Positions 91 to 62,040 of a DNA stretch of 64,000 bases are shown here, in pieces. Origin of the DNA: Bacteroidota bacterium (GTDB lineage Bacteria > Bacteroidota > Bacteroidia > Chitinophagales > Chitinophagaceae); contig JABDAZ010000002.1 in the NCBI GenBank assembly GCA_013288945.1, positions 1 to 64,000 of the forward strand, in the 5' to 3' direction. Made by a program: the position numbers and the translations under genes. Within the stretch, counting starts at the first letter, position 1. Every line of letters begins with the position of its first letter. The notes beneath the pieces were generated by a model, which saw only the letters and a list, made by a program, of their open reading frames with translations, was not told the origin of the DNA and made no database searches.

Positions 91-153
91 GATGTGAAAT
101 GTATGGTGTACGAAGTTAGATGCGGGATGTAAGATTGGAGATGTGAAAGATGA
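91..153. repeat. Heptad-period repeat array (GATGCGG type)
   Basis: Nine successive 7-base units can be read without a gap: gatgtga, aatgtat, ggtgtac, gaagtta, gatgcgg, gatgtaa, gattgga, gatgtga, aagatga. Most begin with GAT. The array starts six bases after the adaptor stop codon. The GATGCGG unit recurs at 8.2, 11.8 and 62.0 kb. No clear inverted arm was found here. Confidence 0.6.
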
Positions 154-278
154 ATTTATTAATGAGCGCATTTATTTTTTGTATGGAGATAATGTGAGGA
201 TGATGAATATTAATAAATATTTGATGGAGAATTTTTAGAGAAATTATTAATAAACCATGGCTGCGCAAAGAACCAAAC

Positions 279-335
279 GTACAAGAGTGCGACGCAACGA
301 TGCTTATAAGAATTACAACTGTTGGGTACAAAATA
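279..335 (+). repeat. Dispersed GCGACGCAAC element, copy 1
   Basis: The core GTGCGACGCAACGATG lies at 287-302, preceded by gtacaaga and followed about 20 bases later by tgttgggtacaaaat, a variant of the TGCYGGTTACA block seen in copies 2 and 4. The core ends 48 bases before the RND start codon and has the same orientation as that gene. Confidence 0.7.
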
Positions 336-350
336 TTTTAAATTAATTGT

Positions 351-3300
351 ATGAGCGCTATCGAAAATATTAAGGGAAAGTTCAAAGAGTTTGGGCCTAC
401 TTCATGGAGCATCAGTAATAAAACGGCTATTTATTTAGTGATGTTGTTTGTAAGCATTTGGGGCGTTTACAAATTTGTTTCGCTGCCGAAAGAACAGTTT
501 CCTGATATTATTATCCCGACAATTTATGTGCAAACAACTTATGTCGGCAACTCGCCAAAAGATATTGAGAACCTGGTAACGCGCCCGATTGAAAAACAAA
601 TAAAAGGAATTACCGGCGCGAAAATTAAAAAATTTACAAGCACATCGCAGCAGGATTATTCTGCGATTATTGTTGAGTTTGATACTGAAGTAAAAACAGA
701 AGTTGCCCTGCAAAAAGTGAAAGATGCGATTGATAAATCGAAACAAGATTTACCAACAGATTTAACTGTTGAACCAACTGCGCTTGAAGTAAATTTAAGT
801 GACCAGCCAATAATGTATGTGAATTTGAGTGGCGATTATGATTTGCAAAGATTGAAAAAATACAGTGACGATTTAAAAGATCGGCTGGAAGATTTGCCGC
901 AAATAAACAGGATTGATGTTGTTGGCGCACCTGAACGTGAGTTTCAGATTAATGTAGATAATTACCGTATGCAGAGCGCGGGCGTTACGTTTGATGATAT
1001 TAATAACGCAGTAAAAAGCGAGAACCTCGATATTTCCGGTGGCTTGCTTGATGTTGGAAATATGAAACGCACGCTTCAATTAAAAGGGCAATTAAAAACT
1101 GCAAATGATATTTCGCAAATTGTTGTGCGCAACTCAACCGGAGCGCCGATTTATTTAAAAGATATTGCTGTTGTTAAAGACACAACAAAAGAAAAAGAAA
1201 GCTATGCGCGGCTGGATGGAAAAAATGTAGTTACACTCAACATTATAAAACGCAGCGGCGAAAATTTAATTGAAACAAGTGAAGCTGTTCAACAAGCTGT
1301 TGATGAAGCACGCGGCGTTTTATATCCGAAAGATTTGAAAGCGGTTGTAACCGGCGATCAAAGTGTAAAAACAAAATCATCTTTTAAAGATTTGGTTAAT
1401 TCTATCGTTATCGGTTTTATATTGGTGCTTTTGGTATTGATGTTTTTTATGGGCGTAACAAATGCATTTTTTGTTGCCTTATCTGTGCCGCTGAGTATGT
1501 TTGTTGCATTCGTATTTTTACCTGCGGCAGATTTAATAATCGGAAGCCATGTTACATTAAATTTCATGGTGCTGTTTTCTTTATTGTTTGCATTGGGAAT
1601 TATTGTGGATGATGCAATTGTTGTGATAGAAAACACACACAGGATTTTTGTAGAAGGCGCAGGAAAATTAAATGTGCAGGTTGCCGCGAAAATGGCTGCC
1701 GGCGAGGTTTTCGTGCCGGTGCTTGCGGGAACATTAACAATGCTTGCGCCGTTTTTTCCATTGCTTTTCTGGCCGGGCATTATTGGTAAGTTCATGGTGT
1801 ATTTGCCAACCATGTTAATCTTTACACTCGCTGCATCATTAATTGTTGCGTTTATAATGAACCCTGTTTTTGCGGTTGATTTTATGAACCATCCTGAAGA
1901 TGAAGTTGAAAAGAAAAGTGATATTTTTAAGAAGCCATATTTCTGGGTAACCATTGGCATAGGAATTCTTTTTGATCTTGCCCACGTAACATTTCTTGGT
2001 AACCTGCTTATCTTTTTTATGTTGCTGGTTTTATTAAACCGTTATGTATTGGACGGTGCAATTCACGCATTTCAAAATCGTGCATTGCCATGGATAATGG
2101 GGCATTATGAAAGCTTGTTGCGCTGGTCGTTAAAAGGATGGAGGCCGGTGCATTTATTACTCGGCACTTTCGGTTTATTAATACTTTCATTTATGTTGTT
2201 CAGCGCTTCCGTTTCTTCAGGAAGAGTTGGTGTTGTATTTTTTCCAAAGGCAGATCCAAACCAGATTTATGTGTATTTAAAATTGCCTGTAGGAACAAAT
2301 GTTGATTATACAGATTCCATCACAAGAATGCTTGAAAGCCGCGTGGATAAAGTGATTGGCGTTGATAGCGGAAAGAAAAACCCTATTGTTGAAAGTGTTA
2401 TCAGTAACGTTGCTATTGGTGCAAGTGATCCTGCAGTTGGCGATAGAAGTACACGAAGCGAGTTGGGAAGAGTGCAGGTTTCTTTTGTTGAATTTGAAAA
2501 AAGAAATGGCGTTTCTACAAGGCCTTATCTTGATAAAATCCGCGCAGCGATGATTGGTGTTCCAGGTTCGCAAATAAGTGTTGACCAGGAAAGCGGCGGG
2601 CCGCCAACCGATCCTCCCATTAATATAGAAATTGCCAGCGAAGATTTTGATGACTTGATTAAAACTGCAAGCGCATTAAAAAATTATTTAGATTCAATAC
2701 AAGTTCCTGGTGTGGAAGAATTGAAGATGGATATCGATTTGAATAATCCTGAAATTACATTAACAGTCGACAGGCAGCGTGCATTAATAGCAGGTATTTC
2801 ATCTACACAAATTGGCCAGCAAATAAGAACCGCATTGTTTGGCAGAGAAGTTTCAAAAATAAAAGAAGGCAAAGACGAATATAAAATTCAGTTGCGCAAT
2901 AATGAATTGCAAAGGCAAAATCTTACCAATTTATTAAACATGAATGTGAGCTTCCGCGATATTGCCAGCGGCGGAATGGTAAAAAATATTCCAATCAGTT
3001 CACTTGTAAAAGTGGAGCCGACAAGCACATTAGGAAGTGTAAAACGTAAGAATCAAAAACGGTTGATTACATTAACATCAAACGTGCTTACAACAAAAGG
3101 TTTTAATGCAACCGGTGTAAATGCAGACATTGCAAAACACATTGCAGACTTCAAGAAAAAACCAGATGATGTAACGATAAAACAAACTGGTGAGGGCGAA
3201 CAACAAGCAGAAACAGGCGCGTTTCTTTTATCTGCTTTGGTTATTGCATTAATGACGATTTTGTTAGTGCTTGTAACGCAGTTTAATAGTGTAAGCAAAT

Positions 3301-3944
3301 CCATTATCATTTTAACGGAGATTGTGTTTAGCGTAATTGGTGTGTTTCTTGGTTTTACAATTAGTGGTATGGAAGTTTCTGTATTAATGACAGGGCTCGG
3401 AATTGTAGGCCTGGCGGGCATTGTAGTGAAGAACGGAATTTTGGTAATTGAATTTACAGATGAACTTCGCGGCCGAGGAATTAAAACGCGTGAAGCTGTG
3501 ATACAAGCCGGTAAAACACGCATTATACCAGTGTTGCTTACAGCAGTTGCGGCGATACTTGCATTTATACCGATTGCTGTTGGCTTTAATATAAATTTCG
3601 TAACATTATTTTCTGAATTGAACCCGCATATATTTTTGGGTGGAGACAACGTTGCATTCTGGAAGCCATTAAGCTGGACAATTATTTTTGGTTTGGCATT
3701 CGCATTTTTTATGACGTTGTTTATGGTGCCCGGAATGTATTTAATTGCAGAGCGTTTAAGAAAACCAATGCGCAGAATGTTTGGTGGCAAATGGATTTCA
3801 TTCCTCGGTATTCCACCATTAATATTTTTGTTTATTCCGCTGATGATTGTAACTGCATTTATTCATAACGCACAAGTAAGCAGAAGGCGAAGAAGCTCAA
3901 TAACACAACCGGCAGATAAAGTATTTACAGGAAGCTGGTTTTAA
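351..3944 (+). CDS. RND-family multidrug efflux pump, AcrB/HAE1-like, extended form
   Basis: A 1197-residue inner-membrane pump expected to export hydrophobic compounds by proton antiport with a periplasmic adaptor and an outer membrane channel. Visible signatures are the first transmembrane helix at about 24-45, FPDIIIPTIYVQTTYVG at 50-66, the paired acidic residues of TM4 (D420, D421 in GIIVDDAIVVIENTHR), and GIVVKNGILVIEF with the lysine of the proton-relay helix near the C-terminus. Classical pumps have about 1030-1050 residues. The surplus here lies in an extra hydrophobic block at about 525-630 between the two halves and in an added C-terminal membrane segment with a basic RRRR tail. 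The ATG at 351 precedes a normal cytoplasmic N-terminus. The adaptor tail lies upstream; no outer membrane channel gene is in the window. Substrate is not predictable. Confidence 0.9.
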   Translation: MSAIENIKGKFKEFGPTSWSISNKTAIYLVMLFVSIWGVYKFVSLPKEQFPDIIIPTIYVQTTYVGNSPKDIENLVTRPIEKQIKGITGAKIKKFTSTSQQDYSAIIVEFDTEVKTEVALQKVKDAIDKSKQDLPTDLTVEPTALEVNLSDQPIMYVNLSGDYDLQRLKKYSDDLKDRLEDLPQINRIDVVGAPEREFQINVDNYRMQSAGVTFDDINNAVKSENLDISGGLLDVGNMKRTLQLKGQLKTANDISQIVVRNSTGAPIYLKDIAVVKDTTKEKESYARLDGKNVVTLNIIKRSGENLIETSEAVQQAVDEARGVLYPKDLKAVVTGDQSVKTKSSFKDLVNSIVIGFILVLLVLMFFMGVTNAFFVALSVPLSMFVAFVFLPAADLIIGSHVTLNFMVLFSLLFALGIIVDDAIVVIENTHRIFVEGAGKLNVQVAAKMAAGEVFVPVLAGTLTMLAPFFPLLFWPGIIGKFMVYLPTMLIFTLAASLIVAFIMNPVFAVDFMNHPEDEVEKKSDIFKKPYFWVTIGIGILFDLAHVTFLGNLLIFFMLLVLLNRYVLDGAIHAFQNRALPWIMGHYESLLRWSLKGWRPVHLLLGTFGLLILSFMLFSASVSSGRVGVVFFPKADPNQIYVYLKLPVGTNVDYTDSITRMLESRVDKVIGVDSGKKNPIVESVISNVAIGASDPAVGDRSTRSELGRVQVSFVEFEKRNGVSTRPYLDKIRAAMIGVPGSQISVDQESGGPPTDPPINIEIASEDFDDLIKTASALKNYLDSIQVPGVEELKMDIDLNNPEITLTVDRQRALIAGISSTQIGQQIRTALFGREVSKIKEGKDEYKIQLRNNELQRQNLTNLLNMNVSFRDIASGGMVKNIPISSLVKVEPTSTLGSVKRKNQKRLITLTSNVLTTKGFNATGVNADIAKHIADFKKKPDDVTIKQTGEGEQQAETGAFLLSALVIALMTILLVLVTQFNSVSKSIIILTEIVFSVIGVFLGFTISGMEVSVLMTGLGIVGLAGIVVKNGILVIEFTDELRGRGIKTREAVIQAGKTRIIPVLLTAVAAILAFIPIAVGFNINFVTLFSELNPHIFLGGDNVAFWKPLSWTIIFGLAFAFFMTLFMVPGMYLIAERLRKPMRRMFGGKWISFLGIPPLIFLFIPLMIVTAFIHNAQVSRRRRSSITQPADKVFTGSWF

Positions 3945-3966
3945 ATAAAATTTTATTAATAAAATT

Positions 3967-3998
3967 AAAAGCCCCGTAATTTTTTCGGGGCTTTTTTT
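3967..3998 (+). terminator. Rho-independent terminator of the RND pump gene
   Basis: The stem AAAAGCCCCG pairs with CGGGGCTTTT around a short TAATTTTTT loop, and the strand continues with a run of T. It lies 22 bases after the pump stop codon. Confidence 0.85.
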
Positions 3999-4012
3999 AT
4001 GTGAATGAAAAA

Positions 4013-4085
4013 ATATTGAATAGCCATCATCAATATCAAGTATTAACAATGATTTGATTATTGAATATTGTTTGTTGAATATTTT
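4013..4085. repeat. Weak heptad-period repeat (TGAATAT type)
   Basis: From 4055 the units tgattat, tgaatat, tgtttgt, tgaatat follow each other at exactly 7 bases. An imperfect opposing arm with tattga and tatcaa words lies at 4013-4045. It is less regular than the other heptad loci. Confidence 0.35.
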
Positions 4086-4139
4086 TTTTAATAGAAGTTG
4101 ATTTGATAAAAAGATCAACGCTTAATTGAAAAACTAAAA

Positions 4140-4195
4140 GTACAAGTGTGCGACGCAACGATGGTGAATTGAAATACAAATGCTGGTTACAAAAA
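4140..4195 (+). repeat. Dispersed GCGACGCAAC element, copy 2
   Basis: The core GTGCGACGCAACGATG is at 4148-4163, preceded by gtacaagt and followed by TGCTGGTTACAAAAAATTT. This is the best-preserved copy and defines the element. It lies between convergent genes, unlike copies 1, 3, 4 and 6, which precede a start codon. Confidence 0.75.
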
Positions 4196-4221
4196 ATTTA
4201 TTAATAGAAATTATAGTGCAT

Positions 4222-4260
4222 AAAAAAATCCGGAGTTATTAATGCTCCGGATTTTGTTTT
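4222..4260 (-). terminator. Rho-independent terminator of the BI-1 gene
   Basis: AAAATCCGGAG and CTCCGGATTTT form an 11-bp stem around TTATTAATG. Read on the minus strand the hairpin is followed by a T-run. It begins 17 bases beyond the stop codon of the BI-1 gene; weaker T-runs on the plus side could make it bidirectional. Confidence 0.85.
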
Positions 4261-4276
4261 TATTTATTAATAAAAA

Positions 4277-5047
4277 TTAATTTCTGCTGCTTGCGAAGCG
4301 GCTTAATAATTTTAAAATTTCAATGTACAACCAAACCAATGTTACCAATAATCCAAATGCGCCATACCATTCCATGTATTTTGGTGCGCCCATTTGTTCG
4401 CCGGTTTCTATTCTTTCAAAATCTAAAATGAGGCTTAATGCTGCGATAACGATTACAAAAATATTAATGCCAATTCCAAGCGGGCTAAAATCGTTCCAGC
4501 TCATAAAAGGCATGTTTACATGGAATAAAGAAAGTATCCAGTAAACCATATAGAATAAAAATATTCCCATGGTTGCCGATACGATAACGGCTTTGAATTT
4601 TGCTGTTGGTTTAATAATCCTGAAATTATATAGTAGAAACATTACAAGCGCAACCGAGAATGTGAGGCCAACAGCCTGCATTACAATGCCCGGATATTTT
4701 TGGCCAACCATATTATTTACAATCACAGAAAATGCGCCCAACAACAAACCTTCCATTAATGCATAAGGCGGCGCAAGATACCGTGCTGTAGCGGGTTTGA
4801 AAGAAATGATCAATCCGGTTATTAATCCGCCGATTAATCCAACCCACATTAATGTCATCATCGTTTCTGCTTTTGAAACCATGAACAAATGCCAGTTGTA
4901 CGTTGCGCCGGCAATTACCATAAACAATAAGAAACCAAATTTAGCGATGGAACCTCTCACAGTCATTGCGCCATCGTGGGCAGTACTAAGCGAACTATTA
5001 AAAATTTTTTCGCTTAAAGTAGGATTGCCAGATTCAAAAAGTGCCAT
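4277..5047 (-). CDS. Bax inhibitor-1/YccA family integral membrane protein
   Basis: A 256-residue polytopic membrane protein with seven hydrophobic segments starting at about residue 35. The N-terminal part (ESGNPTLSEKIF followed by GAMTVRGSIAK) and the membrane-plus-short-tail organisation match the prokaryotic BI-1 group usually annotated YccA-like or BaxI_1. The family includes calcium-leak channels (for example Bacillus YetJ) and modulators of membrane proteases; the physiological role in Bacteroidota is not established. Interestingly FtsH, a protease whose E. coli homologue is modulated by YccA, is also in this window but far away. The ATG is well placed and the gene is monocistronic with its own terminator. 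Confidence 0.85.
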   Translation of the reverse strand: MALFESGNPTLSEKIFNSSLSTAHDGAMTVRGSIAKFGFLLFMVIAGATYNWHLFMVSKAETMMTLMWVGLIGGLITGLIISFKPATARYLAPPYALMEGLLLGAFSVIVNNMVGQKYPGIVMQAVGLTFSVALVMFLLYNFRIIKPTAKFKAVIVSATMGIFLFYMVYWILSLFHVNMPFMSWNDFSPLGIGINIFVIVIAALSLILDFERIETGEQMGAPKYMEWYGAFGLLVTLVWLYIEILKLLSRFASSRN

Positions 5048-5186
5048 AGTTATAGAGTTTTAATTTTTGTCAATTTACAAAACAGGTTGCAAAGTTAATA
5101 ATGATTCAAAAGAAAACAAGTATTGAAAATGCTGCGCGCTGTTAATCATTTTATATAAAACATTTTAAAAGATCAGGAGTTTGAAA

Positions 5187-6041: not shown

Positions 6042-6062
6042 GATAATAATATTCCTGAATGT

Positions 6063-6096
6063 AAAAAACCATCCTGATATTATCAGAATGGTTTTT
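6063..6096 (-). terminator. Terminator hairpin downstream of ricT
   Basis: AAAAACCAT and ATGGTTTTT pair, with an inner CTGAT/ATCAG stem separated by single-base bulges. Read on the minus strand it is followed by TTTTTTAC. It lies 20 bases beyond the ricT stop codon. Confidence 0.75.
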
Positions 6097-6115
6097 AAAA
6101 GTTAACGAAAGATTT

Positions 6116-7419: not shown

Positions 7420-7444
7420 CGTTTGTTGCGTCGCACTCTTGTAC
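7420..7444 (-). repeat. Dispersed GCGACGCAAC element, copy 3
   Basis: On the minus strand the sequence reads GTACAAGAGTGCGACGCAAC, identical to copy 1 in this part. The downstream GGTTACA block is not obvious. The core ends 79 bases before the ricT start codon, in the same orientation. The surrounding gap (7346-7899) otherwise holds only the heptad element at 7673-7903 and a small AACCCG/CGGGTT hairpin near 7632-7647. Confidence 0.65.
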
Positions 7445-7672: not shown

Positions 7673-7903
7673 GAGATGATACCGGATGTATGTTTTGTGA
7701 TTTGTTATAGTGATTTAAGATTCGCGTTGCGGGATTCGAGAAATGTGGTTTAAAGATTTTAGCATGAATGATTAATAGAAATTTGTTTCCAAAATTTTCA
7801 CGATTTGCATAAATTATAATTAAAAATAAATCCCGAATCACGTATCCCGAAACTCGAATCAAAACCCGAATCTCGCAACACGTATCTTCATCAATCATCT
7901 CAA
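7673..7903. repeat. Inverted heptad-period repeat (GATTCGG type)
   Basis: The left arm (about 7673-7785) has 7-base words such as ttcgcgt, tgcggga, ttcgaga, aatgtgg. The right arm (about 7829-7903) has the complementary words aatcccg, aatcacg, tatcccg, aaactcg, aatcaaa, acccgaa. The arms can fold back across about 45 bases. The right arm ends inside the last codon of the small membrane protein gene. Confidence 0.6.
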
Positions 7904-8133: not shown

Positions 8134-8354
8134 GATGTGAGATGTTGAATGTGAAACGGGTTGCGGGATTCGGGATGTTTTGGGATATGTGATTTTAGAT
8201 GCGCGATATGCGATGCGGGATTTTCAGTTAATCAAATTTGAGAGTTTAGTTTTTTAATAATATATTTTTGAGGCAAACAAAAAATCTGAAACCACATTTC
8301 CCGAATCCCGTAACCCGCATCTAAAATCATACATCCGACATCAAAATCACATCA
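8134..8354. repeat. Inverted heptad-period repeat bridging two gene ends
   Basis: The left arm (8134-8225) reads gatgtga, gatgttg, aatgtga, aacgggt, tgcggga, ttcggga, tgttttg. The right arm (8284-8354) read on the other strand gives GATGCGGGTTACGGGATTCGG. The central 60 bases are unrelated AT-rich sequence. The left arm begins at the base after one start codon, and the right arm overlaps the last codons and stop of holB. Confidence 0.65.
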
Positions 8355-9552
8355 CCACCGCCACTGTTTTATTTGCAATAATATGATAGAGTTTTATTGT
8401 TAATGCATGAAAAAGCATTTTCGCATTTGCGTTGCGTTCTATATAATAACTTGCTTTATCAAGTTCTTCAATAATCGCTTGTTGTTGTGAAATGTCTGCA
8501 ATTTTATTTAAGCGAATCGCAAAATCTTTTTCATTATCGGGAACGCGCAACTGCGCGCCATCCATCACTTTCACGCGGATTGCCTGTTCCAATAAATGAT
8601 TAAAATATCTTAAAAATTGTTTCTGTCTTTCTCTTCCGAGTTTACTTACATCATCAATCCATTTTACTTGCGCAACCGGGCCGGTTTTTAAAATTGCATT
8701 CAGCCATTCTCTTAATAATCCCTGCCAGTCTTCATCTGCGTGTTGCAAAATTTGTAATGCTTCATGATAATTTCCTTCGCTGATGGATGCAACCTGCCTT
8801 GCCTGGTCAACAGAAATTTTTGCGCGTTGTATTAATGCGTTTTCAATATCAACAGTTTCCAATGCAGGAATTTTTACCAATTGTGTTCTTGATAAAATCG
8901 TTTGCAGTATTAATGATTCATTTTCTGCAACAAAAATAAACAGTGTATTCGCCGGCGGTTCTTCAATCAGTTTTAATAATTTATTTCCTTCATTGCCAAG
9001 ATATTCCGGCATCCACATGATTAATATTTTATAACCACTTTCAAAACTTTTTAAACTGAGTTTGTAATTGATATCGTTGCATTCGTGCGCAGTAATATTT
9101 CCCTGTTTATTTTCTGCGCCGATAAATTGCAGCCAGTCGTACACATTTCCGTAAGGATGTTTGGAAATAAATTCGCGCCATTCCGTAATAAAATTTGTGC
9201 TCACTGGTTTATCGCCAGTTTTTTTTGGAATAACCGGATAAGAAAAATGAATATCAGGGTGAATCAATTGTCGCGCTTTTATGCAAGATGCGCAAACGCC
9301 GCACGCATCTGCTGGCGCATTATTAATGGCCAGTGACTGACTTTCTTCTTCGCCAAATAATGATGCAGAAGAATCTTTTTTACCATTTACTTTTTCGCAA
9401 ACAATATATTGTGCAAATGCAAGTGCGAGTGATAATGCGCCGCTTCCTTCCGGGCTTAAAAATAATAATGCATGGCTTAAGCGATTGTGAAAAACCATTT
9501 CAGCCAAATGTTGCTTTACCTCATTTTGCCCGATAACATTTTTAAAAGACAT
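8347..9552 (-). CDS. holB: DNA polymerase III delta' subunit (clamp-loader component)
   Basis: A 401-residue AAA+ family protein that would act in the clamp loader, placing the sliding clamp on DNA. It begins MSFKNVIGQNEVKQHL, typical of the family. The P-loop is degenerate (SPEGSGALSL at 33-42, no GKT), as expected for delta' as opposed to the ATPase subunit DnaX. A zinc motif follows with C52, C84, C87 and C90 (CGVCASC). The sensor-like region with ELLIEEP-type sequence (KLIEEPPANTLFIF) is also present. It lies upstream of ricT, an arrangement shared with Bacillus. The last codons overlap a repeat arm, suggesting that the repeat has moulded the very C-terminus. Confidence 0.88.
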   Translation of the reverse strand: MSFKNVIGQNEVKQHLAEMVFHNRLSHALLFLSPEGSGALSLALAFAQYIVCEKVNGKKDSSASLFGEEESQSLAINNAPADACGVCASCIKARQLIHPDIHFSYPVIPKKTGDKPVSTNFITEWREFISKHPYGNVYDWLQFIGAENKQGNITAHECNDINYKLSLKSFESGYKILIMWMPEYLGNEGNKLLKLIEEPPANTLFIFVAENESLILQTILSRTQLVKIPALETVDIENALIQRAKISVDQARQVASISEGNYHEALQILQHADEDWQGLLREWLNAILKTGPVAQVKWIDDVSKLGRERQKQFLRYFNHLLEQAIRVKVMDGAQLRVPDNEKDFAIRLNKIADISQQQAIIEELDKASYYIERNANAKMLFHALTIKLYHIIANKTVAVVM

Positions 9553-9594: not shown

Positions 9595-9655
9595 AAAAAA
9601 GTTATGGGTTATGAATTATGAGTTATTAATAACTCATAATTCATAACCCATAACT
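9595..9655 (-). terminator. Perfect 56-bp palindrome with heptad period, acting as a terminator of the glutathione peroxidase gene
   Basis: Positions 9600-9655 are a perfect inverted repeat with no spacer, centred between 9627 and 9628. Each arm is itself a heptad series: gttatgg, gttatga, attatga, gttatta. On the minus strand the hairpin is followed by TTTTTT, so it looks like a strong intrinsic terminator for the upstream gene. It lies 26 bases after that gene's stop codon and 48 bases before the holB start. Confidence 0.85.
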
Positions 9656-11756: not shown

Positions 11757-11990
11757 GATGCGGGATTTTAGATACGAGATTTGGATACGAGATTCGAGAT
11801 ACGTGATTTTTGATTTTTGATTTCTGTTTTCTGTTTTCTATTTTCTGATTTCTGATTTCTGATTTCTGTTTTCTGATTTCTGATTTCTGATTTCTGTTTT
11901 CTGTTTTCTGTTTTCTGTTTTCTATTGGACACGTAAGATAAATATTTTGAATACTCAATCGCGTATCCCGAAACCCGAATCTTTTAAAAT
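11757..11990. repeat. Heptad array of 24 units plus a short opposing arm
   Basis: From 11757 to 11924 the sequence can be cut into 24 consecutive 7-base units: four of the GATGCGG/GATACGA kind, then atacgag, attcgag, atacgtg, then variants of atttctg and ttttctg. The shift from one heptad family to another keeps the phase. A short opposing arm (tatcccg, aaacccg, aatcttt) lies at about 11962-11982. The array lies between comF and the beta-helix gene. Confidence 0.85.
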
Positions 11991-12705: not shown

Positions 12706-12803
12706 GTGAATGGTCAATGATGAAAGATGAATCGGTAATTTATTCTATTAATAACATTTGTATTTTATTATTATTCATTTTTTACCATTCACCATTCACT
12801 TTT
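12706..12803. repeat. Inverted heptad-period repeat (GTGAATG type)
   Basis: The left arm reads gtgaatg, gtcaatg, atgaaag, atgaatc, ggtaatt (12706-12740). The right arm reads cattttt, taccatt, caccatt, cactttt (12776-12803), whose complement is GTGAATGGTGAATGG. Both arms keep period 7. It fills the gap between radA and comF, ending three bases before the radA stop codon. Confidence 0.7.
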
Positions 12804-12805: not shown

Positions 12806-14182
12806 TCACGAAAACAAATATTGATATACTTCATCAACACGTCCCATACTTACAACTTCAATATTAAACTTTTGATTTTTTAATCCTTTTTGATTGTATT
12901 TGGAAACAAGAATTTTTTCGAAACCAAGTTTTTCTGCTTCGGCAATGCGTTGTTCAATTCTATTAACGGCGCGTATTTCACCACTTAAACCAACTTCGCC
13001 TGCAAAACAAATATGTTGCGGCAACGAAACATCTTCGTAAGAACTTAATAATGCACACAGCACAGCCAAATCAATAGAAGGATCTTCAACTTTTAATCCG
13101 CCGGCAATATTTAAAAAAACATCTTTTACACCAAAATGAAATCCGCCGCGCTTTTCTAGAACAGCTAATAATAATTGTAAACGGCGCAAATCGAAACCCG
13201 TTACGGTTCTTTGGGGCGTTCCGTAAACAGATTGCGTTACCAGCGCCTGCACTTCTATTAATAAAGGCCGCATGCCTTCGATGGTTGCAGCGATTGCAAC
13301 GCCGCTAAGTTGATCTTCGCGTTGTGTTATTAATAATTCGCTTGGATTATTAACGCCGCGCATGCCTGAGTCACTCATTTCATAAATTCCCAATTCTGAT
13401 GTGCTGCCGAATCGGTTTTTTAAAGTTCTTAAAATCCGATACGCATAATGTCGGTCACCTTCAAATTGAAGAACGGTGTCAACCATATGTTCTAAAATTT
13501 TTGGACCTGCAATGATTCCATCTTTTGTAATATGGCCAATTAAAAAAACAGGAGTGTTTGTTTCTTTTGCGAAGCGTTGAAATTCGGAAGCGCATTCGCG
13601 AATTTGTGAAACACTTCCTGGTGATGATTCTATATAAGGTGATTGCAAAGTTTGGATCGAATCAACAATTACTAATTGTGGTTTTAGTTTTTTTATTTCC
13701 TGAAAAATAATTTGTGTTGATGTTTCTGTAAGCAAATAAAAATTTTCATTTTGAATTTTCAAACGATCTGCGCGCATTTTAATTTGCTGTTCACTTTCTT
13801 CACCACTTATATATAAGGTGATAATATTTTTTAACAACAAACCATTTTGTAAAAACAAAGTACTCTTTCCGATTCCCGGTTCGCCGGCAACAAGAATAAT
13901 ACTTCCTGCAACAATGCCACCGCCTAAAACCCTGTTCAGCTCTGCATCTTCGCTGATTATTCTTTTTTCTTCACCACTTGTTACTTCATTAATCGCAATT
14001 GTTTTTATTTCTTTTTTATCTGAAGAAAATTTTTTCCAATCAGTTTCACCATTCTTATTATCTTTTGTAATTACTTCTTCAACAAATGTATTCCACTGTT
14101 CGCAGCTCGGGCATTTACCTAACCACTTTGCACTTTCATATCCGCAGTTGCTGCAAAAAAAAGCTGTTTTTATTTTACTCAT
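12806..14182 (-). CDS. radA: DNA repair protein RadA
   Basis: A 458-residue RecA-like motor that promotes branch migration during recombination. The N-terminal zinc finger uses C10, C13, C24 and C27. Walker A is GEPGIGKST (101-109), followed by the RadA-specific KNRFG motif at 256-260. The C-terminal half is a Lon-protease-like domain without an active site, as usual in RadA. Length is standard. It starts with ATG at 14182; the leader carries an AAGAAAATTT/AAATTTTCTT hairpin at 14245-14274 whose significance is unknown. Confidence 0.95.
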   Translation of the reverse strand: MSKIKTAFFCSNCGYESAKWLGKCPSCEQWNTFVEEVITKDNKNGETDWKKFSSDKKEIKTIAINEVTSGEEKRIISEDAELNRVLGGGIVAGSIILVAGEPGIGKSTLFLQNGLLLKNIITLYISGEESEQQIKMRADRLKIQNENFYLLTETSTQIIFQEIKKLKPQLVIVDSIQTLQSPYIESSPGSVSQIRECASEFQRFAKETNTPVFLIGHITKDGIIAGPKILEHMVDTVLQFEGDRHYAYRILRTLKNRFGSTSELGIYEMSDSGMRGVNNPSELLITQREDQLSGVAIAATIEGMRPLLIEVQALVTQSVYGTPQRTVTGFDLRRLQLLLAVLEKRGGFHFGVKDVFLNIAGGLKVEDPSIDLAVLCALLSSYEDVSLPQHICFAGEVGLSGEIRAVNRIEQRIAEAEKLGFEKILVSKYNQKGLKNQKFNIEVVSMGRVDEVYQYLFS

Positions 14183-42411: not shown

Positions 42412-42450
42412 TAAATTGCGCGCAACAAATTTAATTTGTAGGATATTTTT

Positions 42451-42484
42451 AAGGCCGGATTTTTTATCCGGCCTTTATTTTTTT
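42451..42484 (+). terminator. Terminator of the papain-like peptidase gene
   Basis: AAGGCCGGAT and ATCCGGCCTT form a 10-bp stem around TTTTTT and run into TATTTTTTTT. It lies 39 bases after the stop codon. Confidence 0.88.
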
Positions 42485-42526
42485 AAATAAATTATTAATG
42501 ATGGTTTTTTAATAAGCATTTTTTAA

Positions 42527-44816: not shown

Positions 44817-44918
44817 GCTAATTAGCAAATTTGAAAATGAAGAAGCACAAATGTTAATGAACTTATTAATAATTTCATTGAACCATTTTCAAACTTTCAA
44901 ATCAAATTTTCAAATTGA
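44817..44918. repeat. Inverted heptad-period repeat (TTTGAAA type)
   Basis: The left arm has gctaatt, agcaaat, ttgaaaa, tgaagaa, gcacaaa; the right arm has tttcaaa, ctttcaa, atcaaat, tttcaaa, ttgattt. The complement of the right arm repeats TTTGAAA. It fills the gap between the M23 gene and bcp, ending four bases before the bcp start codon. Confidence 0.65.
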
Positions 44919-46996: not shown

Positions 46997-47119
46997 TTGA
47001 TGATGATATAATGGATAATAAAGCTTTAACAAACTTATCGCTCGTTATAATGTTATATAATTTTTGAATTTTTACTTTTCATTTTTTAATTAATAAGAAC
47101 AGTCCACGAAAAATAAAAT

Positions 47120-52940: not shown

Positions 52941-53075
52941 TTGACGTTTGACAGATGACTGTTGACTGATTTATAATTTTATCAATATTATTTTTGCAAA
53001 AAGCCTTTAATGTTTATAAAATATTAAAAGGTATAAATCATTCACTCCGTCAACTGTCATCTTTCAACCGTAAAC
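52940..53075. repeat. Inverted heptad-period repeat (GTTGACA type) between convergent genes
   Basis: The left arm is gttgacg, tttgaca, gatgact, gttgact, gatttat (52940-52974). The complement of the right arm (53041-53075) reads GTTTACG, GTTGAAA, GATGACA, GTTGACG. Four heptads therefore match in order across arms. The right arm is followed by TTTTTAT. The arms flank AT-rich sequence of 66 bases; the first base of the left arm is the last base of the mscS stop codon. Confidence 0.75.
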
Positions 53076-53696: not shown

Positions 53697-53815
53697 AGTA
53701 AAATCAATTTGTAAAAAAATAAATCCTATTGATAAAATACGGATGAGTTAAGGGCGGGATAAATATTAATTCTGCAAGCAAGATACAAATTTCAAGCCAA
53801 TGAAGGTTAAGAAAA

Positions 53816-53972
53816 CAAGGTTCAAGGTTCAAGAATCAAGGTTCAAGAGTCAGGAAATAAAATCCAACGTTCAATGCCCAAAATCCAATGCTATAATTTG
53901 ATTTTTACAATCGTATTATTGTTCCTTGAATCTTGTGCCTTGATTCTTGAACCTTGAATCTTGATTCTGGAT
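53816..53972. repeat. Inverted heptad-period repeat (CAAGGTT type)
   Basis: From 53816 twelve or so heptads begin mostly with CAA: caaggtt twice, caagaat, caaggtt, caagagt, caggaaa, taaaatc, caacgtt, caatgcc, caaaatc, caatgct. The right arm (53924-53972) is the complementary series ccttgaa, tcttgtg, ccttgat, tcttgaa, ccttgaa, tcttgat, tctggat. The right arm abuts the stop codon of the M23 gene. Confidence 0.8.
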
Positions 53973-54944
53973 TTAGTCAAAACTCTGGTTACTCGATGCT
54001 GCAAGTTTCAGCAACCTGTCGTATTGTTCGGGAGTAATATCGTTGTAAAAATAATAAACAGGATCAACGGTGTCGACATTTCTGTGCACTTCATAATGGC
54101 AGTGCGGGCCGGTACTTTTTCCGGTGCTTCCAACCCAGCCGATAATTTCACCACGTTTTACTTTTTCTCCCGGATGCACTTTTACACGAAACATATGGCC
54201 GTATAAAGTTTTATATCCATAACCGTGATTAATAACAACATGGTTTCCGTAACCATTTCCTGTATTGCCCGCAGTTTCAATTGTTCCGTTTGCCGTTGCA
54301 TAAATCGGCGTTCCCTGTGGCGCAGCAAAATCAAGCCCGGCGTGAAATTTAGTGGTTTTATAAACTGGATCAATCCTATATCCATAGCCAGAAGCAATCC
54401 TGCTTAAATCTTTATTATTAACAGGCTGAATCGCTGGCGTGCATGCCAATAGTTGCTCTTTATTTTTTACAAAACCATCAATTTCAGAATAAGATTTTGT
54501 TTGAACCGCAATGCGCGAAGTAAGATTGTTTAAAGTATTTGCAATGGAAGTCGATAAATTTTCCTGGTCCATTCCCTGCACGAGTTGAATTTCCTTTTGC
54601 TGATCCAACGCTTTTGCACGCGCGCTATCGGGAATTGGGTTGGCTTCAAAAATGGCGCGGTACACATGGTTATCGCGTTTTTCCAACTCGCCCATTTGCT
54701 CCTGCAATTTTTTTATTTTATCATCCAGCACATAATAATTATCCTTCAGCGCTTCATTTCTTTGTATTAATCTTTTTTCATTTGCCGAAGGAAAATATTT
54801 GTACGCAATGGAAACAAGTATAACGGCAGTTACCATCGACGTTGAAAAAAAACCAAGCACACGCAAGAGTTTTACCCGGAGTGGTGTCTCCAGTTTTTCA
54901 TAACGGAGCGTATTGGTATTATAATAATATTTTATTTTCTTCAT
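53973..54944 (-). CDS. M23-family metallopeptidase with coiled coil, membrane-anchored
   Basis: A 323-residue peptidoglycan hydrolase-like protein. One membrane helix (30-48) is followed by a coiled coil (about 55-95, KKLQEQMGELEKR) and then the M23 domain from about 180. Zinc ligands are H201 and D205 (FHAGLDFAAP) and H283 (GPHCHYEV). Similar proteins, NlpD or EnvC-like, cleave or activate cleavage of cell-wall cross-links. It diverges from alaS, a gene order I recall from other Bacteroidota. The stop codon abuts a heptad element. Confidence 0.88.
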   Translation of the reverse strand: MKKIKYYYNTNTLRYEKLETPLRVKLLRVLGFFSTSMVTAVILVSIAYKYFPSANEKRLIQRNEALKDNYYVLDDKIKKLQEQMGELEKRDNHVYRAIFEANPIPDSARAKALDQQKEIQLVQGMDQENLSTSIANTLNNLTSRIAVQTKSYSEIDGFVKNKEQLLACTPAIQPVNNKDLSRIASGYGYRIDPVYKTTKFHAGLDFAAPQGTPIYATANGTIETAGNTGNGYGNHVVINHGYGYKTLYGHMFRVKVHPGEKVKRGEIIGWVGSTGKSTGPHCHYEVHRNVDTVDPVYYFYNDITPEQYDRLLKLAASSNQSFD

Positions 54945-54998
54945 GCTGCAAGCTGTTATTAAACCGTTTTACAGGTTAATAAAACAATTTGAATCGCG

Positions 54999-55006: not shown

Positions 55007-55081
55007 CACCGCTATAATAATGCGGGATTACAAATATAATTCTTAGCCACTCAACCAACAACCAAAGATTTATTGCACATG

Positions 55082-57904: not shown

Positions 57905-58016
57905 TCCGATTTTAGCGTTTGAAAAAAGATTTCCGAAAAATTTCGTAGTTTCAAATATTCCATTATATTTGATGTACGAAATTTGACGTAGATAATTATT
58001 TCACACAAAAAAAATA

Positions 58017-59045
58017 ATGATGAAAAAATATTTTTTGAAATCTGTAAGCCTTGCTGCTATTGTGTTAGCGCTTAATGTCCGCTCTTTTGCGCAAGATACT
58101 CCACCGCCTCCTCCGCCGCATATAATTGAAGATGGCAATAATCATGAAGAAATTATTATTTCCAAAAAAGGCGATAAAGATATAAAGATGACTGTTGAAA
58201 TTAAAGACGGCCAGATTTATATTAATGGAAAAAAAACAGATGAGTTTAGCGATGATAATATTTCCATTCATAAAAGAATAAAACGTGAGATTAATGATGA
58301 TGCTTTTTCTTTTTCTGCGCCTGAATCGCCTTATCAAAATGGAAGTTGGAATTATAATACCTATTCAGATATGTATTCGGGCCACACGGCTTTTTTGGGC
58401 GTGAGTTCAGAAAAAACGGAAGATGGTGCAAAAATTATTGAAGTAACAAAAGAAAGCCCTGCGGAAAAATCTGGCTTGCAAAAAGGCGATGTGATTACAA
58501 AGATTAATGACGCAAAAATTGAAACGCCGGAAGATTTATCAAAGGCAATTCATTCTTACAAAGTAGAAGATAAAGTGGCAGTTACTTTTAAACGCGATAA
58601 TAAAGAACAAAAAGTTACTGCTGTGCTCGAAAAATTAAAAGGCACTTTCAACAAGTCTTTTAATATTACTATTCCGGATATGGATATGGCGCAAATGCCA
58701 ACAGTAAAAGAGTATGGCGGAATGAACAAAATGTATGGCCCGCGCGCGTTTTCAATAAAATATGATAAGCCAAAAATTGGTATTAAAGCGCAGGATACGG
58801 AAGATGGCAAAGGTGTAAAAGTGCTTGATGTGGATGATGAATCTCCGGCTGAAAAAGCGGGTATTAAAGAGGATGATATTATTACGGAATTTGATGGAAA
58901 GATTGTGAACAGTGCTGATGCACTTGCAGCAGCATCGCGCGCGGCCAAAGATAAAAGTGTATTTAAAGTAAAATTTAAAAGAGATGATAAACAACAGGAA
59001 GTGGAAATTAAAATTCCAAAGAAATTAAAAACTGCTGATTTATAA
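58017..59045 (+). CDS. Exported protein with two PDZ domains
   Basis: A 342-residue exported protein. The signal peptide is MMKKYFLKSVSLAAIVLALN, followed by a Pro-rich turn (TPPPPPPH). Two PDZ domains are visible, about 122-205 (AFLGVSSEKTEDGAKIIEVT, ESPAEKSGLQKGDVITKIND) and 250-330 (IGIKAQDTEDGKGVKVLDVD, ESPAEKAGIKEDDIITEF). No serine-protease triad precedes them, so this is not a complete DegP-like protease; it may be a periplasmic adaptor. An adjacent ATG at 58020 is equally possible as the start. A terminator follows. Confidence 0.85.
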   Translation: MMKKYFLKSVSLAAIVLALNVRSFAQDTPPPPPPHIIEDGNNHEEIIISKKGDKDIKMTVEIKDGQIYINGKKTDEFSDDNISIHKRIKREINDDAFSFSAPESPYQNGSWNYNTYSDMYSGHTAFLGVSSEKTEDGAKIIEVTKESPAEKSGLQKGDVITKINDAKIETPEDLSKAIHSYKVEDKVAVTFKRDNKEQKVTAVLEKLKGTFNKSFNITIPDMDMAQMPTVKEYGGMNKMYGPRAFSIKYDKPKIGIKAQDTEDGKGVKVLDVDDESPAEKAGIKEDDIITEFDGKIVNSADALAAASRAAKDKSVFKVKFKRDDKQQEVEIKIPKKLKTADL

Positions 59046-59072
59046 TTTGTAATTACGCTGATTTTTTGAATG

Positions 59073-59106
59073 AAGAGTTGCCCTGCAGGCAGCTCTTTTT
59101 TTTTTT
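59073..59106 (+). terminator. Terminator of the PDZ protein gene
   Basis: AAGAGTTGCC and GGCAGCTCTT pair with one G-T wobble around CTGCA, followed by ten or more T. It lies 27 bases after the stop codon. Confidence 0.85.
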
Positions 59107-59241
59107 AATAAACGTGAAAATTGATTTGAACCATTCGTCATTATAGCGACATGAAATACCGTGTGAATGCGGTATTTTTGCTGCTCACTTTTTAAAGTTA
59201 ATAATGCAAACTGATTTGCAGATTGCTGAATAAAGAACAAT

Positions 59242-59285
59242 TGTAAAAGTGTGCGACGCAACTGATGATGATTAAAGAACTACTG
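59242..59285 (+). repeat. Dispersed GCGACGCAAC element, copy 6
   Basis: GTGCGACGCAAC at 59251-59262, preceded by gtaaaa and followed by TGATGATG. The core ends 40 bases before the gatB start, in the same orientation. The GGTTACA block is not evident. Confidence 0.65.
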
Positions 59286-59302
59286 ATCACTCAATAAAAA
59301 TA

Positions 59303-60754
59303 ATGGCAGTTAATTACGATAAATATGAAATAGTTGTTGGGCTTGAAGTGCATGCGCAACTGCTTACGCAAACAAAATTATTTTGTGGCGACAGCGCTTC
59401 ATTTGGTGGCGAACCGAACACGCATGTAAGTGCAATTACACTTGGCCATCCCGGAACGTTGCCGAAGCTGAGTAAAAAAGCTGTTGAATATGCAGTGAAA
59501 ATGGGTTTGGCCTGCCATTGCGAAATTGAACGCCATAATTATTTTGCACGCAAAAATTATTTTTATCCTGATTTGCCGAAAGGTTATCAGATTACGCAGC
59601 ATACAACGCCCATTTGCAAAGGCGGTTTTGTTGTTATTAAAACTGCAAACGGAGACAAAAATATTTTATTAAACCGCATTCATTTAGAAGAAGATGCCGG
59701 CAAAAGTTTGCATGATGTGGATGAAAAAAATACAAGCATTGATTATAACCGCGCAGGCGTTCCATTGATTGAAATCGTTACGGAGCCTTGCTTGCAGAGC
59801 AGCGATGAGGCTTTTTTATATTTAACGGAGCTGCGAAAAATTTTGCGCTATACTGAAGTTTGCGATGGCAATATGGAAGAAGGAAGTATGCGTTGCGATG
59901 CGAATGTGTCGATACGATTGAAGGGTGAAAAAAAGTTGGGGACGAAGGTTGAAGTAAAGAATTTAAATTCTATACGTAACGTGAAACGTGCAATTGAATT
60001 TGAAACAAAACGATTAATAGAATTGGTTGAAAATGGCGGAAATGTAACGCAGGAAACAAGAAGTTTTGATGCAAATAACGGAACAACATTTTCAATGCGC
60101 ACAAAAGAAGATGCAAATGACTACCGCTATTTTGCTGATCCGGATTTGACGCCGTTTAATATCACGGATATTTTTTTGGAAGAAATTAAAAAAACAATTC
60201 CTGCATTGCCGGAAGAATTAATTGCGAAATATACCAGCGTATTAATGCTGCCCGAATATGATGCGCGTGTGATTTGTGATGATAAAGAAACGTCTGATTT
60301 TTTTGAAAAAATAATTAAGCAAACAACAAATTATAAAGCCGCCGCAAACTGGTTAATCGGCCCGATAAAATCTTATTTAAATGAAAACAGTTTATTAATA
60401 AAAGATTTTTCTGTTAGTGCAGAAACGCTTGCGCAACTAATACAATTGGTTGATGAAGGCAAAGTAAATTTTTCAGTAGCATCAACAAAAATTTTACCTG
60501 AATTAATAAAAGATAAAAACGCAAACCCGCTGGAAGTGGCTACAGCACTGAATTTGGTGCAAAGTTCGGATACAAGTGAAGTTTTAATTTGGGTGGAAGA
60601 AGCACTCGCAAAAATGCCGGATAAAGTTGCAGAATATAAAAAAGGCAAGAAAGGATTAATCGGTTTATTTGTTGGCGAAGTAAAAAGAATATCAAAAGGA
60701 AAAGCAGATCCAAAACTTACGAATGAAATATTATTACAAAAATTAAATAGTTAG
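59303..60754 (+). CDS. gatB: Aspartyl/glutamyl-tRNA amidotransferase subunit B
   Basis: A 483-residue subunit of GatCAB, which converts Glu-tRNA(Gln) or Asp-tRNA(Asn) to the amide form. It begins with the conserved IVVGLEVHAQLLTQTKLFC and shows DLPKGYQITQ, RIHLEEDAGKS, DYNRAGVPLIEIVTEP and EGSMRCDANVSIR. The C-terminal YqeY-like tail domain is from about 330. GatA and GatC are elsewhere. ATG 59303 fits the conserved start. Confidence 0.96.
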   Translation: MAVNYDKYEIVVGLEVHAQLLTQTKLFCGDSASFGGEPNTHVSAITLGHPGTLPKLSKKAVEYAVKMGLACHCEIERHNYFARKNYFYPDLPKGYQITQHTTPICKGGFVVIKTANGDKNILLNRIHLEEDAGKSLHDVDEKNTSIDYNRAGVPLIEIVTEPCLQSSDEAFLYLTELRKILRYTEVCDGNMEEGSMRCDANVSIRLKGEKKLGTKVEVKNLNSIRNVKRAIEFETKRLIELVENGGNVTQETRSFDANNGTTFSMRTKEDANDYRYFADPDLTPFNITDIFLEEIKKTIPALPEELIAKYTSVLMLPEYDARVICDDKETSDFFEKIIKQTTNYKAAANWLIGPIKSYLNENSLLIKDFSVSAETLAQLIQLVDEGKVNFSVASTKILPELIKDKNANPLEVATALNLVQSSDTSEVLIWVEEALAKMPDKVAEYKKGKKGLIGLFVGEVKRISKGKADPKLTNEILLQKLNS

Positions 60755-60778
60755 TCAACGTGTTTATCAATCTTAAAA

Positions 60779-61948
60779 ATGAAAATAAATTTTATGCATA
60801 AAAAAATATTGTGGTTATTAATGAGCGGTACATTTTTATTAATGTATTCATGCAAACAAAACGGGCAAAATAAATTTCATGTGGTTGGAAGTTTTAAAAA
60901 TGCAACGGTAACAAAAGTTGCGCTGCTTTCTATACCAACCGGAAAAGATCAATTGCCTGTTACTTTGGATTCTGCAAAACTTTCAGGAAGCAATGGCAGC
61001 TTCAGTTTAACGGCTAGTGGAAAAAAACAGGAAATTTATGAACTTGTTTTTGGAGATAATATTCCGGTGCCAATTATTAATGATGCAGAGGAAATAAAAG
61101 TAGATGTAGACTTAGGAAAAAAAGATGATTACTATGAAGTAAGCGGTTCGCCTGCAAGCACGATGTTGAAAGATTTGATAAGTACTTTTGGAAAAAAGAA
61201 TTTTGAAGTAGATAGGCAATTTGCTGAGCTGGATAGTTTGAAAAAAGCAAATGCACCTGATAGTATTATGATTACGGCAACTGCAACAAAAAATAATACG
61301 ATTGAAGATTTGAATAGTTATTTAAAAAATTTTATTGAAAAAAGTTCAAACGGTTCATTAAGTGTGCTTGCTTTAGGTTGGGCATCTCGCAGTTTATCAA
61401 CGCCGGATTTTGAAAAAGAATTGGCTGTTGTAACAAAAAAATTCCCTGATAATTTAGTGTTGCAGGATATGCGCAAAAGTTATTATGCACAAAAAACACA
61501 AGCACAAACGCCTGAACCTACATCAGGCACATGGGTTGGCAAACCCGCGCCGGAACTGAGTTTGGATGATGCCGATGGAAAAGCTATTCCACTTTCTTCA
61601 TTTAAAGGAAAATATGTTTTGGTAGATTTTTGGGCGAGCTGGTGTGGCCCGTGCAGAATGGAAAACCCGAATGTTGTAAAAGCATATTCAGAATATAAAA
61701 ATAAAAATTTTGCCATACTTGGTGTGTCGCTTGATAAAGATAAAGGAGCGTGGCAAAAAGCAGTAAAGGATGATAATTTATCGTGGGCGCAGGTGAGCGA
61801 TTTAAAATATTGGAACAGCCATGCTGTTGAAGTTTTTCAATTCCAGGGAATACCTTTTAATATATTGGTTGATCCACAGGGAAAAATAATTGCACAGGAA
61901 TTACGCGGAGCAGATTTAGAAAATAAATTAAAAGAAGTGTTGCAGTAA
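60779..61948 (+). CDS. TlpA-type thioredoxin-fold disulfide reductase lipoprotein with DUF4369-like N-domain
   Basis: A 389-residue lipoprotein with lipobox LMYSC (C25). The N-terminal all-beta domain (about 33-125) matches the DUF4369 arrangement (FHVVGSFKNATVTKVALL). The C-terminal thioredoxin domain (about 255-389) has the redox motif WCGPC (C289, C292) and PFNILVDPQGKIIA. It would act in the periplasm to reduce disulfides, for example in cytochrome maturation. It follows gatB after 24 bases and ends at an inverted heptad element that provides a terminator. Confidence 0.88.
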   Translation: MKINFMHKKILWLLMSGTFLLMYSCKQNGQNKFHVVGSFKNATVTKVALLSIPTGKDQLPVTLDSAKLSGSNGSFSLTASGKKQEIYELVFGDNIPVPIINDAEEIKVDVDLGKKDDYYEVSGSPASTMLKDLISTFGKKNFEVDRQFAELDSLKKANAPDSIMITATATKNNTIEDLNSYLKNFIEKSSNGSLSVLALGWASRSLSTPDFEKELAVVTKKFPDNLVLQDMRKSYYAQKTQAQTPEPTSGTWVGKPAPELSLDDADGKAIPLSSFKGKYVLVDFWASWCGPCRMENPNVVKAYSEYKNKNFAILGVSLDKDKGAWQKAVKDDNLSWAQVSDLKYWNSHAVEVFQFQGIPFNILVDPQGKIIAQELRGADLENKLKEVLQ

Positions 61949-61953
61949 GGTTT

Positions 61954-62040
61954 AAGATGTAATTGTGTGAGTAAGATTTTAGATGCGGGATTCGAGATAC
62001 GGGATTAATATTTTAAAATCCCTTATTCGTGTCCCGCATC
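61954..62040 (+). terminator. Heptad-type hairpin terminator of the TlpA-like gene
   Basis: The left arm has gatgcgg, gattcga, gatacgg, gattaat (61982-62009); the right arm gives ttaaaat, cccttat, tcgtgtc, ccgcatc, complementary in part. GATGCGGGA pairs with TCCCGCATC-like sequence at the ends. On the plus strand the hairpin is followed by GTTTTTTATA. It lies between the convergent TlpA-like and MMPL genes. Confidence 0.75.

Follow-up and report, generated by a model that had tools for sequence, protein, structure and literature searches.

The window analysed here is a stretch of 64,000 nucleotides (C2:1-64000) from the draft genome (3.03 Mb, completeness 72.9) of a soil bacterium of the Chitinophagaceae. 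Between its genes lie arrays of degenerate seven-nucleotide units, here called heptads, which are often paired as hairpin arms of about two to sixteen units. A first-pass annotation of the window had parsed eleven intergenic regions into heptads. When the best lag-7 segment of each region was compared with 1000 dinucleotide shuffles, 10 of the 11 were significant, 9 of them at p≤0.003, and region 44817-44918 alone had to be given up. The inverted second arm that had been called usual exceeded 60 shuffles (p≤0.03) in 9 of the 11 regions, the others being 91-153 (p 0.5) and again 44817-44918 (p 0.08). The features are as follows, with no strand assigned to any of them.

82-154: single-arm heptad array of GATGTGA-type words (lag-7 score 17; region 91-153, lag 7 p=0.001), no second arm found (inverted-repeat p 0.5)
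4013-4085: weak period-7/14 array with convergent genes on either side (lag 7 p=0.012, lag 14 p=0.003)
7673-7903: heptad hairpin of GATNNNN-type words (GATTCGC, GATACGT), two arms around an AT-rich loop (lag 7 p<0.001, inverted-repeat p 0 of 60)
8134-8354: heptad hairpin of GATGCGG words, best-paired arms at about 8176-8220 and 8299-8343, adjoining the stop codon of the DNA polymerase III delta' gene (8347-9552, minus strand; Pfam PF13177)
9600-9655: perfect 56-bp palindrome of GTTATGA/GGTTATG/AATTATG units (period and inverted-repeat tests)
11757-11990: GATACGA arms around a long TGATTTC/TTTTCTG array (lag-7 score 110.5)
12706-12803: heptad hairpin of GTGAATG/GTCAATG words, 2 nt from the stop codon of gene 12806-14182 (minus strand)
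42445-42526: period-14 segment, unlisted in the first-pass annotation, overlapping an ordinary GC hairpin by eye
44817-44918: listed region without period 7, excluded (lag 7 p=0.78; top lags 13, 21, 8)
47050-47096: T-rich period-7 array, absent from the earlier list (lag-7 score 15.5)
52941-53074: GTTGACA/GATGACA hairpin between two convergent genes, whose stop codons lie at distances of 0 nt and 4 nt
53813-53972: CAAGGTT/CAAGAAT hairpin, arms at about 53813-53863 and 53915-53966, ending at the stop codon of gene 53973-54836 (minus strand)
61954-62040: GATGCGG/GATTCGA/GATACGG hairpin with convergent genes on either side (lag 7 p=0.003, lag 14 p<0.001; inverted-repeat p 0 of 60)

The array at 4013-4085 is weak if any lag from 4 to 21 is allowed to win (p 0.095, 200 shuffles; inverted-repeat p 0.03). 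Inside the hairpin at 11757-11990, the TGATTTC/TTTTCTG array occupies 11804-11923 with 17 units (17.1 copies by Tandem Repeats Finder), nested between the GATACGA-type arms.

Period, hairpin arms and words across the genome

For the genome-scale analysis we used 61 pieces including the window, together 1.256 Mb of the 3.03 Mb (41% of the genome), in which a simple codon model of our own called 1114 genes and left 742 intergenic regions of at least 40 nt. The comparison of lag-7 signal with shuffled sequence, proposed in the first-pass annotation, gave a clear excess: 133 intergenic segments with a score of at least 14, against 6.3 in the mean of 3 dinucleotide shuffles, and 88 against 1.0 at a score of at least 18. 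At the lower threshold the harmonics were raised too (lag 14, 106 against 8.0; lag 21, 44 against 4.3; lag 28, 33 against 2.3), and those at 35 and 42 were visible. Lag 8 formed a minor class (37 against 7.3), lag 3 was also raised (56 against 7.3), and no other lag up to 42 outside the multiples of 7 gave more than 20 segments.

Merging the lag-7 and lag-14 segments yielded 156 arrays in 142 of the 742 regions. With tandem 7-nt units at many intergenic loci, and the same word at many loci of one genome (also in Niastella), the arrays agree with dispersed heptameric simple repeats of the STRR or long simple sequence repeat (LSSR) type, STRR being the name for the dispersed heptanucleotide repeats of cyanobacteria, which are likewise tandem. 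The units are not the near-perfect copies of a simple repeat: within-arm identity at lags 7 and 14 is 0.64 in 63 hairpins, and the "exact" period claimed earlier was too strong a word.

An independent search for inverted repeats, which took no account of the period, covered the 676 of 742 regions that are 40-500 nt long. This search found 79 with a score of at least 18, against 2 in one shuffle. In those scoring at least 25 (n=20), arm identity was 0.53 at lag 7 and 0.54 at lag 14 but 0.26-0.32 at every remaining lag between 4 and 15, while in the weaker ones (score 10-18) lag 7 stood barely above the rest (0.36-0.37 vs about 0.30-0.36). Among 146 inverted repeats with a score of at least 15 and arms of at least 20 nt, 63 were heptadic. 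The two arms of these matched at 0.78 in the best register. A shift by 7 or 14 lowered the match to 0.68, other offsets gave 0.31, and the best register beat the shifted ones in 59 of the 63; the order of unit variants therefore tends to be mirrored between the arms, as in AGTTGACGGTTGACAGATGACAGTTGACAGAA. Such stems consist of two complementary strands of 7-nt repeats, as does the heptad stem P6b of the Nostoc trnL intron.

The same words recur throughout the genome, in roughly ten classes counted by eye, among them GTTGACA, GTTATGA, GTTAGCT and GTGAATG. AACTGTC (GTTGACA class) occurs in tandem at 15 intergenic regions, AACTCAT (GTTATGA) and AATGGTG (GTGAATG) at 13 each, and AACAGCT (GTTAGCT) and ACAGATG (GATGACA) at 12 each, all with 0 in one shuffle; the top of the tandem-heptad list is held by AT-rich words that are common in shuffles too (AAAAAAT, 55 vs 26). 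Among 142 arms from 110 regions, a 12-mer was common to 286 region pairs, against 39.6 (maximum 48) in 10 permutations of the heptad columns of each array. Five sharing clusters take in 85 of the 110 regions and 25 stand single; the largest cluster (64 regions, 14 of them displayed) links several words through mixed arrays. Sharing is dispersed rather than local, as only 4 of 168 pairs with a common 14-mer fall within one 20-kb piece, compared with 107 of all 5995 pairs. Few long stretches are identical between loci (a 28-mer common to 3 locus pairs vs 0.5 in the control). The earlier statement that the sequence differs between loci and only the period is shared is thus contradicted by the recurring words, and the loci do not align to one ordinary consensus either, several word classes being present.

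What is shared belongs to the arms. A 12-mer was common to 82 pairs of arms, against 6.4 in shuffles, but to only 5 pairs among 60 loops (2.8 in shuffles), and a 16-mer shared by two loop pairs came in both cases from the separate GTCGCAC repeat described below. Flanks shared a word in 40 pairs against 15.6, the displayed examples coming again from the GTCGCAC repeat. The spread of a repeat, which the first-pass annotation had set aside, therefore has to be readmitted, though for arm words and not for whole elements with their loops. Word sharing between loci was also found in two relatives, Niastella soli (30 pairs vs 2.8) and N. yeongjuensis (105 vs 8.7). The vocabulary held in common with other genera is modest: a 12-mer of the host arms is carried by 13 of 43 Niastella arms (4.1 expected), by 17 of 60 arms from other Chitinophagaceae (9.2), and by 2 of 9 from samples of the order, class and phylum (1.6).

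Two simpler accounts of the words were tried and rejected. A universal heptad consensus, sought by expectation maximization over phase and strand, was weak (0.19 nats per base vs 0.165 column-permuted, with a flawed control that re-segmented the arrays and retained 64 of the 142 arms). Stop codons in all three frames were rejected as the general reason for a period of 7 because GGCAGAA, frequent in N. yeongjuensis, contains no stop (by eye); stop density was 0.106 on the G-rich strand vs 0.094 column-permuted, and 0.057 vs 0.053 on the other strand.

Position behind stop codons and word change in relatives

A third of the arrays, 52 of 156, come within 3 nt of a stop codon, where random placement in the same regions gives 22.6 ± 2.8; our own gene calls define both the intergenic regions and the stop positions and are a source of bias for the position results. 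The majority (104 of 156) are not within 3 nt of a stop, and start codons show no clear excess (22 of 156 vs 17.9 ± 2.7). When coding sequence was added, 56 array ends within 3 nt of a stop were recovered: 12 start downstream of the stop codon, and the overlap with it is 1-10 nt in 31 and more than 10 nt in the remaining 13. The abutment was replicated in N. soli (12 of 27 arrays within 8 nt of a stop vs 3.2 ± 1.3) and N. yeongjuensis (12 of 35 vs 5.0 ± 1.5). In the host, arrays number 1.10 per kb between convergent genes, 1.01 between co-directional genes and 0.55 between divergent genes.

The arrays also have a polarity. The 5' arm of the heptadic hairpins is G-rich (G>C in 54, G<C in 11, the rest ties), compared with 46 and 33 in the other 82 inverted repeats. 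Read outward from the stop, array ends within 15 nt of it have G>C in 68 cases and G<C in 11, against 175 and 217 for the first 30 nt outward from the stop in array-free regions. In the two Niastella species the corresponding ratios are 12:2 and 13:3, with controls of 93:88 and 80:92. Outward from start codons the control is already skewed (333:154 in the host genome), so that only the stop side is special.

To follow the arrays into other genomes, we kept 80 loci around the DNA polymerase III delta' gene, from Chitinophagaceae and other Bacteroidota, both metagenome-assembled genomes and isolates, in which the delta' protein of the host matches at 64-79%; these matches are the ground on which the host is treated as a member of the Chitinophagaceae. 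A lag-7 segment with a score of at least 14 was present in 54 of 742 intergenic regions of these loci, against 0 in one shuffle, and in 34 of the 80 loci; lag 14 gave 32 against 1, lag 8 gave 20 against 2, and the rest of lags 4 to 21 gave 12 at most. The start of the PSP1-domain gene was recognised in 30 loci; in 10 of them an array (lag-7 score of at least 12.5) lies upstream of it, AT-rich and partly different in sequence between species, and no score above 9.25 was seen in the remaining 20. Per 10 kb of intergenic sequence, lag-7 segments number 8.1 in the host, 7.0 in N. yeongjuensis, 3.6 in N. soli, 3.5 in the delta' loci (72 of 80 analysed, pieces under 8 kb dropped) and 3.0 in the order sample (12 of 20 pieces); three further family genomes gave 1.5 (1 segment), and the class and phylum samples 0.8 and 0.7 (1 segment each, shuffle level), all of these being small samples. 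The period is common to all word classes and to the relatives.

The same intergenic loci were then compared between N. soli and N. yeongjuensis, as the first-pass annotation had advised, over stretches with 291 orthologous genes (median 91% protein identity) and 174 of 253 orthologous intergenic regions that are at least 40 nt in both species. Both carry an array (score of at least 12) in 21 of the 174 regions, against 4.8 expected, one only in 16 and neither in 137; at a score of at least 14, both carry one in 10 regions against 2.6 expected. Joint presence above independence indicates that the sites tend to be inherited. In our reading of the printed alignments, words and unit numbers drift while the sites stay. 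At C1:707496, for instance, CRGTTNC units in one species correspond to ARGTTNC units in the other, on both sides of the hairpin; at N. soli C1:612120 each arm shows a 7-nt difference between the species, and one pair is exchanged between T-A and C-G; at 919916 the species differ by one 7-nt unit in one arm; and at 663071 a heptad hairpin in one species stands where the other has a short octad hairpin. In three more distant Niastella loci (L059, L061 and L056), one terminator is flanked by heptad arms in two species and by octad arms in the third (by eye). The Niastella stretches have minor periods of 8 and 11 (with 16 and 22), which are octad and 11-mer versions of the heptad arrays.

Proposed copying in seven-nucleotide steps and competing explanations

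According to these results, we give about even chances to the view that the loci constitute a dispersed DNA-level repeat family, which is turned over in units of 7 nt and homogenised between arms and between loci. Heptad units would be gained and lost by 7-nt slippage, and one arm would be rewritten repeatedly from the other by template switching across the hairpin, which is probably how the copying proceeds. Distant arrays may template each other through their shared words, by which a few words would spread through the genome. The space directly behind a stop codon would be where the growth of an array is tolerated, and any effect of the arrays on transcripts would be secondary. The 7-base copying step proposed in the first-pass annotation survives here as the best reading of the mirrored arms, the site conservation and the single 7-nt differences.

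Several points weigh against this copying scheme. Slippage and template switching are deduced from the patterns and not directly observed. The in-register excess of the arms is biased upward, the best register being chosen. Indels of a multiple of 7 are in weak excess in Niastella, with 17 of 94 gaps (4-35 nt) in array regions vs 11 of 112 in array-free ones, and the two species are too distant a pair. Covariation between arms is modest, with 9 paired double changes vs 3.2 expected and 49 pair-breaking single changes in 16 directional comparisons (each pair counted from both sides), and other inverted repeats covary at least as strongly (25 vs 6.4, 49 comparisons). The strong polarity and the abutment on stop codons could also mean selection. 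A bolder form of the idea, in which a trans-acting copying with a 7-nt step links the arrays of one genome, within hairpins and between distant loci, is tentative and on balance doubtful.

If, instead, the arrays were selected RNA structures at gene 3' ends, stabilisers or terminators for which the period of 7 is merely a manner of building the stem, their abutment on stop codons in three genomes, the low density between divergent genes and some compensatory changes would fit. Terminator-like hairpins are also somewhat rarer in co-directional regions that have arrays (2 of 73) than in those without (17 of 191), with little difference in convergent regions (5 of 20 vs 13 of 41). However, mismatches in a hairpin kept as RNA are expected to lean toward G.U on the transcribed strand, and the sense strands of 47 co-directional hairpins show no such wobble bias (48 G.U vs 66 A.C), which leaves the selection for a structure that the first-pass annotation had offered as an alternative unsupported at the RNA level. 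U-tracts are not enriched (16 of 70 heptadic vs 20 of 82 other inverted repeats), and the loops are long (median 28.5 nt in 70 heptadic inverted repeats). The hairpins do not fit the short-loop stem and U-tract of an intrinsic terminator, and termination is not supported as their main role. Moreover, ordinary GC terminators lie inside or beside at least 3 Niastella arrays (by eye), and the window has no Rfam match. We consider this explanation unlikely.

Non-autonomous mobile elements, such as miniature inverted-repeat transposable elements (MITEs) or REPINs, would account for words dispersed genome-wide without local clustering, for the presence or absence of arrays between orthologous regions, and for a genome with two Y1 transposase (PF01797) genes. 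But a mobile element would share its loop, and the hardly shared loops disfavour this reading: the arrays lack the common internal sequence of a MITE, and with several word classes and few long identical copies they are not the sequence-conserved palindrome family of a REP/REPIN system with its REP-associated tyrosine transposase (RAYT). By eye, seven one-sided pairs offered no clean insertion with a duplicated target, and a separate conserved family, GGCGTCGCACTCTTGTAC, found at 186 places, looks more like the repetitive extragenic palindrome (REP)-type repeat of this genome. Mobility of this kind is distinctly unlikely. Polymerase slippage with a 7-nt step that is confined to each locus and independent of the others could draw on a 2007 survey in which heptanucleotides were the top category of long simple repeats and a polymerase contact was proposed (Mrazek 2007, via PMC4679880 and PMC4692102); it predicts neither the same words at many loci nor mirrored second arms, and we hold it to be very unlikely. 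A protein that touches the DNA at 7-bp intervals, with the heptads as its ordered binding sites, is an idea favoured by the conserved polarity and by many words that look like a constant 4-mer plus 3 variable bases (by eye); it is highly improbable in view of the many different words in one genome and the want of a strong universal consensus.

Other repeats and neighbours were recorded alongside. The 186 genome copies of GGCGTCGCACTCTTGTAC (91 + 95) were counted at no more than 2 mismatches, with 0 for the reversed control; two lie in the window, at 279-296 and 7427-7444, and a relative of it stands upstream of the PSP1 gene in loci L092 and L098. This repeat has the look of a REP-type element whose core is CGTC. 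The two Y1 transposase genes are at G000:C6:61039-61380 and C14:19041-19379 and are possible partners of the GTCGCAC repeat. A link between them and the arrays was rejected, since one flank (L256) has arrays and one GTCGCAC repeat, the other (L255) has neither, and no pattern emerges. An AT-rich intergenic motif, ATTAATAA, occurs at 2.34 per kb vs 0.26 in a shuffle (1.256 Mb of G000), with a similar density in arms and loops. At L043:5552-19372 there are five tandem paralogues of about 800 aa with 34-43% identity, and several intervals beside them hold heptad arrays of several word classes.

Known heptamer repeats and the meaning of the family

Heptamer repeats themselves are already known, and the first-pass statement that no such family had been described was too strong. 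For most genomes, heptanucleotides are reported to outnumber every other category of long simple repeats, and a polymerase-contact hypothesis exists for this (Mrazek 2007, via PMC4679880 and PMC4692102). The GGGAATC and GGGGA(C/T)T heptamers of Xanthomonas and Nostoc are described as degenerate and intergenic and as under-represented between divergent genes; on the coding strand, most follow a stop codon at a distance of 0-50 bp and some overlap it. Stem-loops are possible where the heptamers are inverted, and most lie between the same genes in two relatives while varying in length and sequence (PMC4692102). The present arrays have in common with them degeneracy, position at gene ends, polarity and rarity between divergent genes; however, that account gives one G-quadruplex-forming word per genome, while here there are about ten words, which are not G-tract repeats, and, commonly, mirrored arms. 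Three tandem heptanucleotides are also mentioned for Calothrix (PMC4692102).

The closest structural precedent that those sources contain is the P6b stem of the Nostoc trnL intron, in which 7-nt repeats pair across a hairpin in two classes (Class I, TDNGATT; Class II, NNTGAGT), the class has been replaced independently with the structure kept, and 7-nt gains and losses occur on one or both sides (PMC4476775). That stem is a single intron locus, whereas the arrays here are many intergenic loci; the window contains no tRNA, and its arrays lie outside any tRNA-Leu group I intron. Direct repeats of TAACTGA are reported from Beggiatoaceae, cyanobacteria and five Bacteroidetes as intergenic arrays with other heptamers mixed in; their indels between two Cyanothece strains are mostly 7-nt steps, and in the main genome studied most of them immediately precede start codons, and one indirect repeat occurs (PMC4679880). 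They resemble the present arrays as intergenic heptamer arrays but differ in the start-codon position, for which the host has no clear excess. TAACTGA itself is absent from the list of the 60 most frequent words of the host genome. To our knowledge, none of the five Bacteroidetes with TAACTGA repeats belongs to the Chitinophagaceae. REP and REPIN elements are described as dispersed intergenic palindromes (PMC3116915, PMC3733652) and keep a family sequence, whereas the heptad hairpins keep a period and arm words. Among the papers listed by searches of open full texts, judged by titles and the openings of abstracts and with few subscription journals covered, we found none on such hairpins in Chitinophagaceae. 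What is new is a multi-word, genome-wide hairpin system in this family.

The bacterial excess of seven-base repeats was raised as a question in 2007 and was, according to one account, still unexplained in 2015 (PMC4692102). The heptad family supplies many natural replicates in one lineage, with the same sites and period, different words and mirrored arms; it can separate the mutation mechanism from function, and it allows the exchange of words between distant loci to be tested. As a caution, intergenic hairpins of Chitinophagaceae need not be terminators or regulatory RNAs. If the proposed copying is real, the genome would hold a small, evolving vocabulary of heptads behind its genes, in which the period and the place are inherited and the words are exchanged like a dialect.

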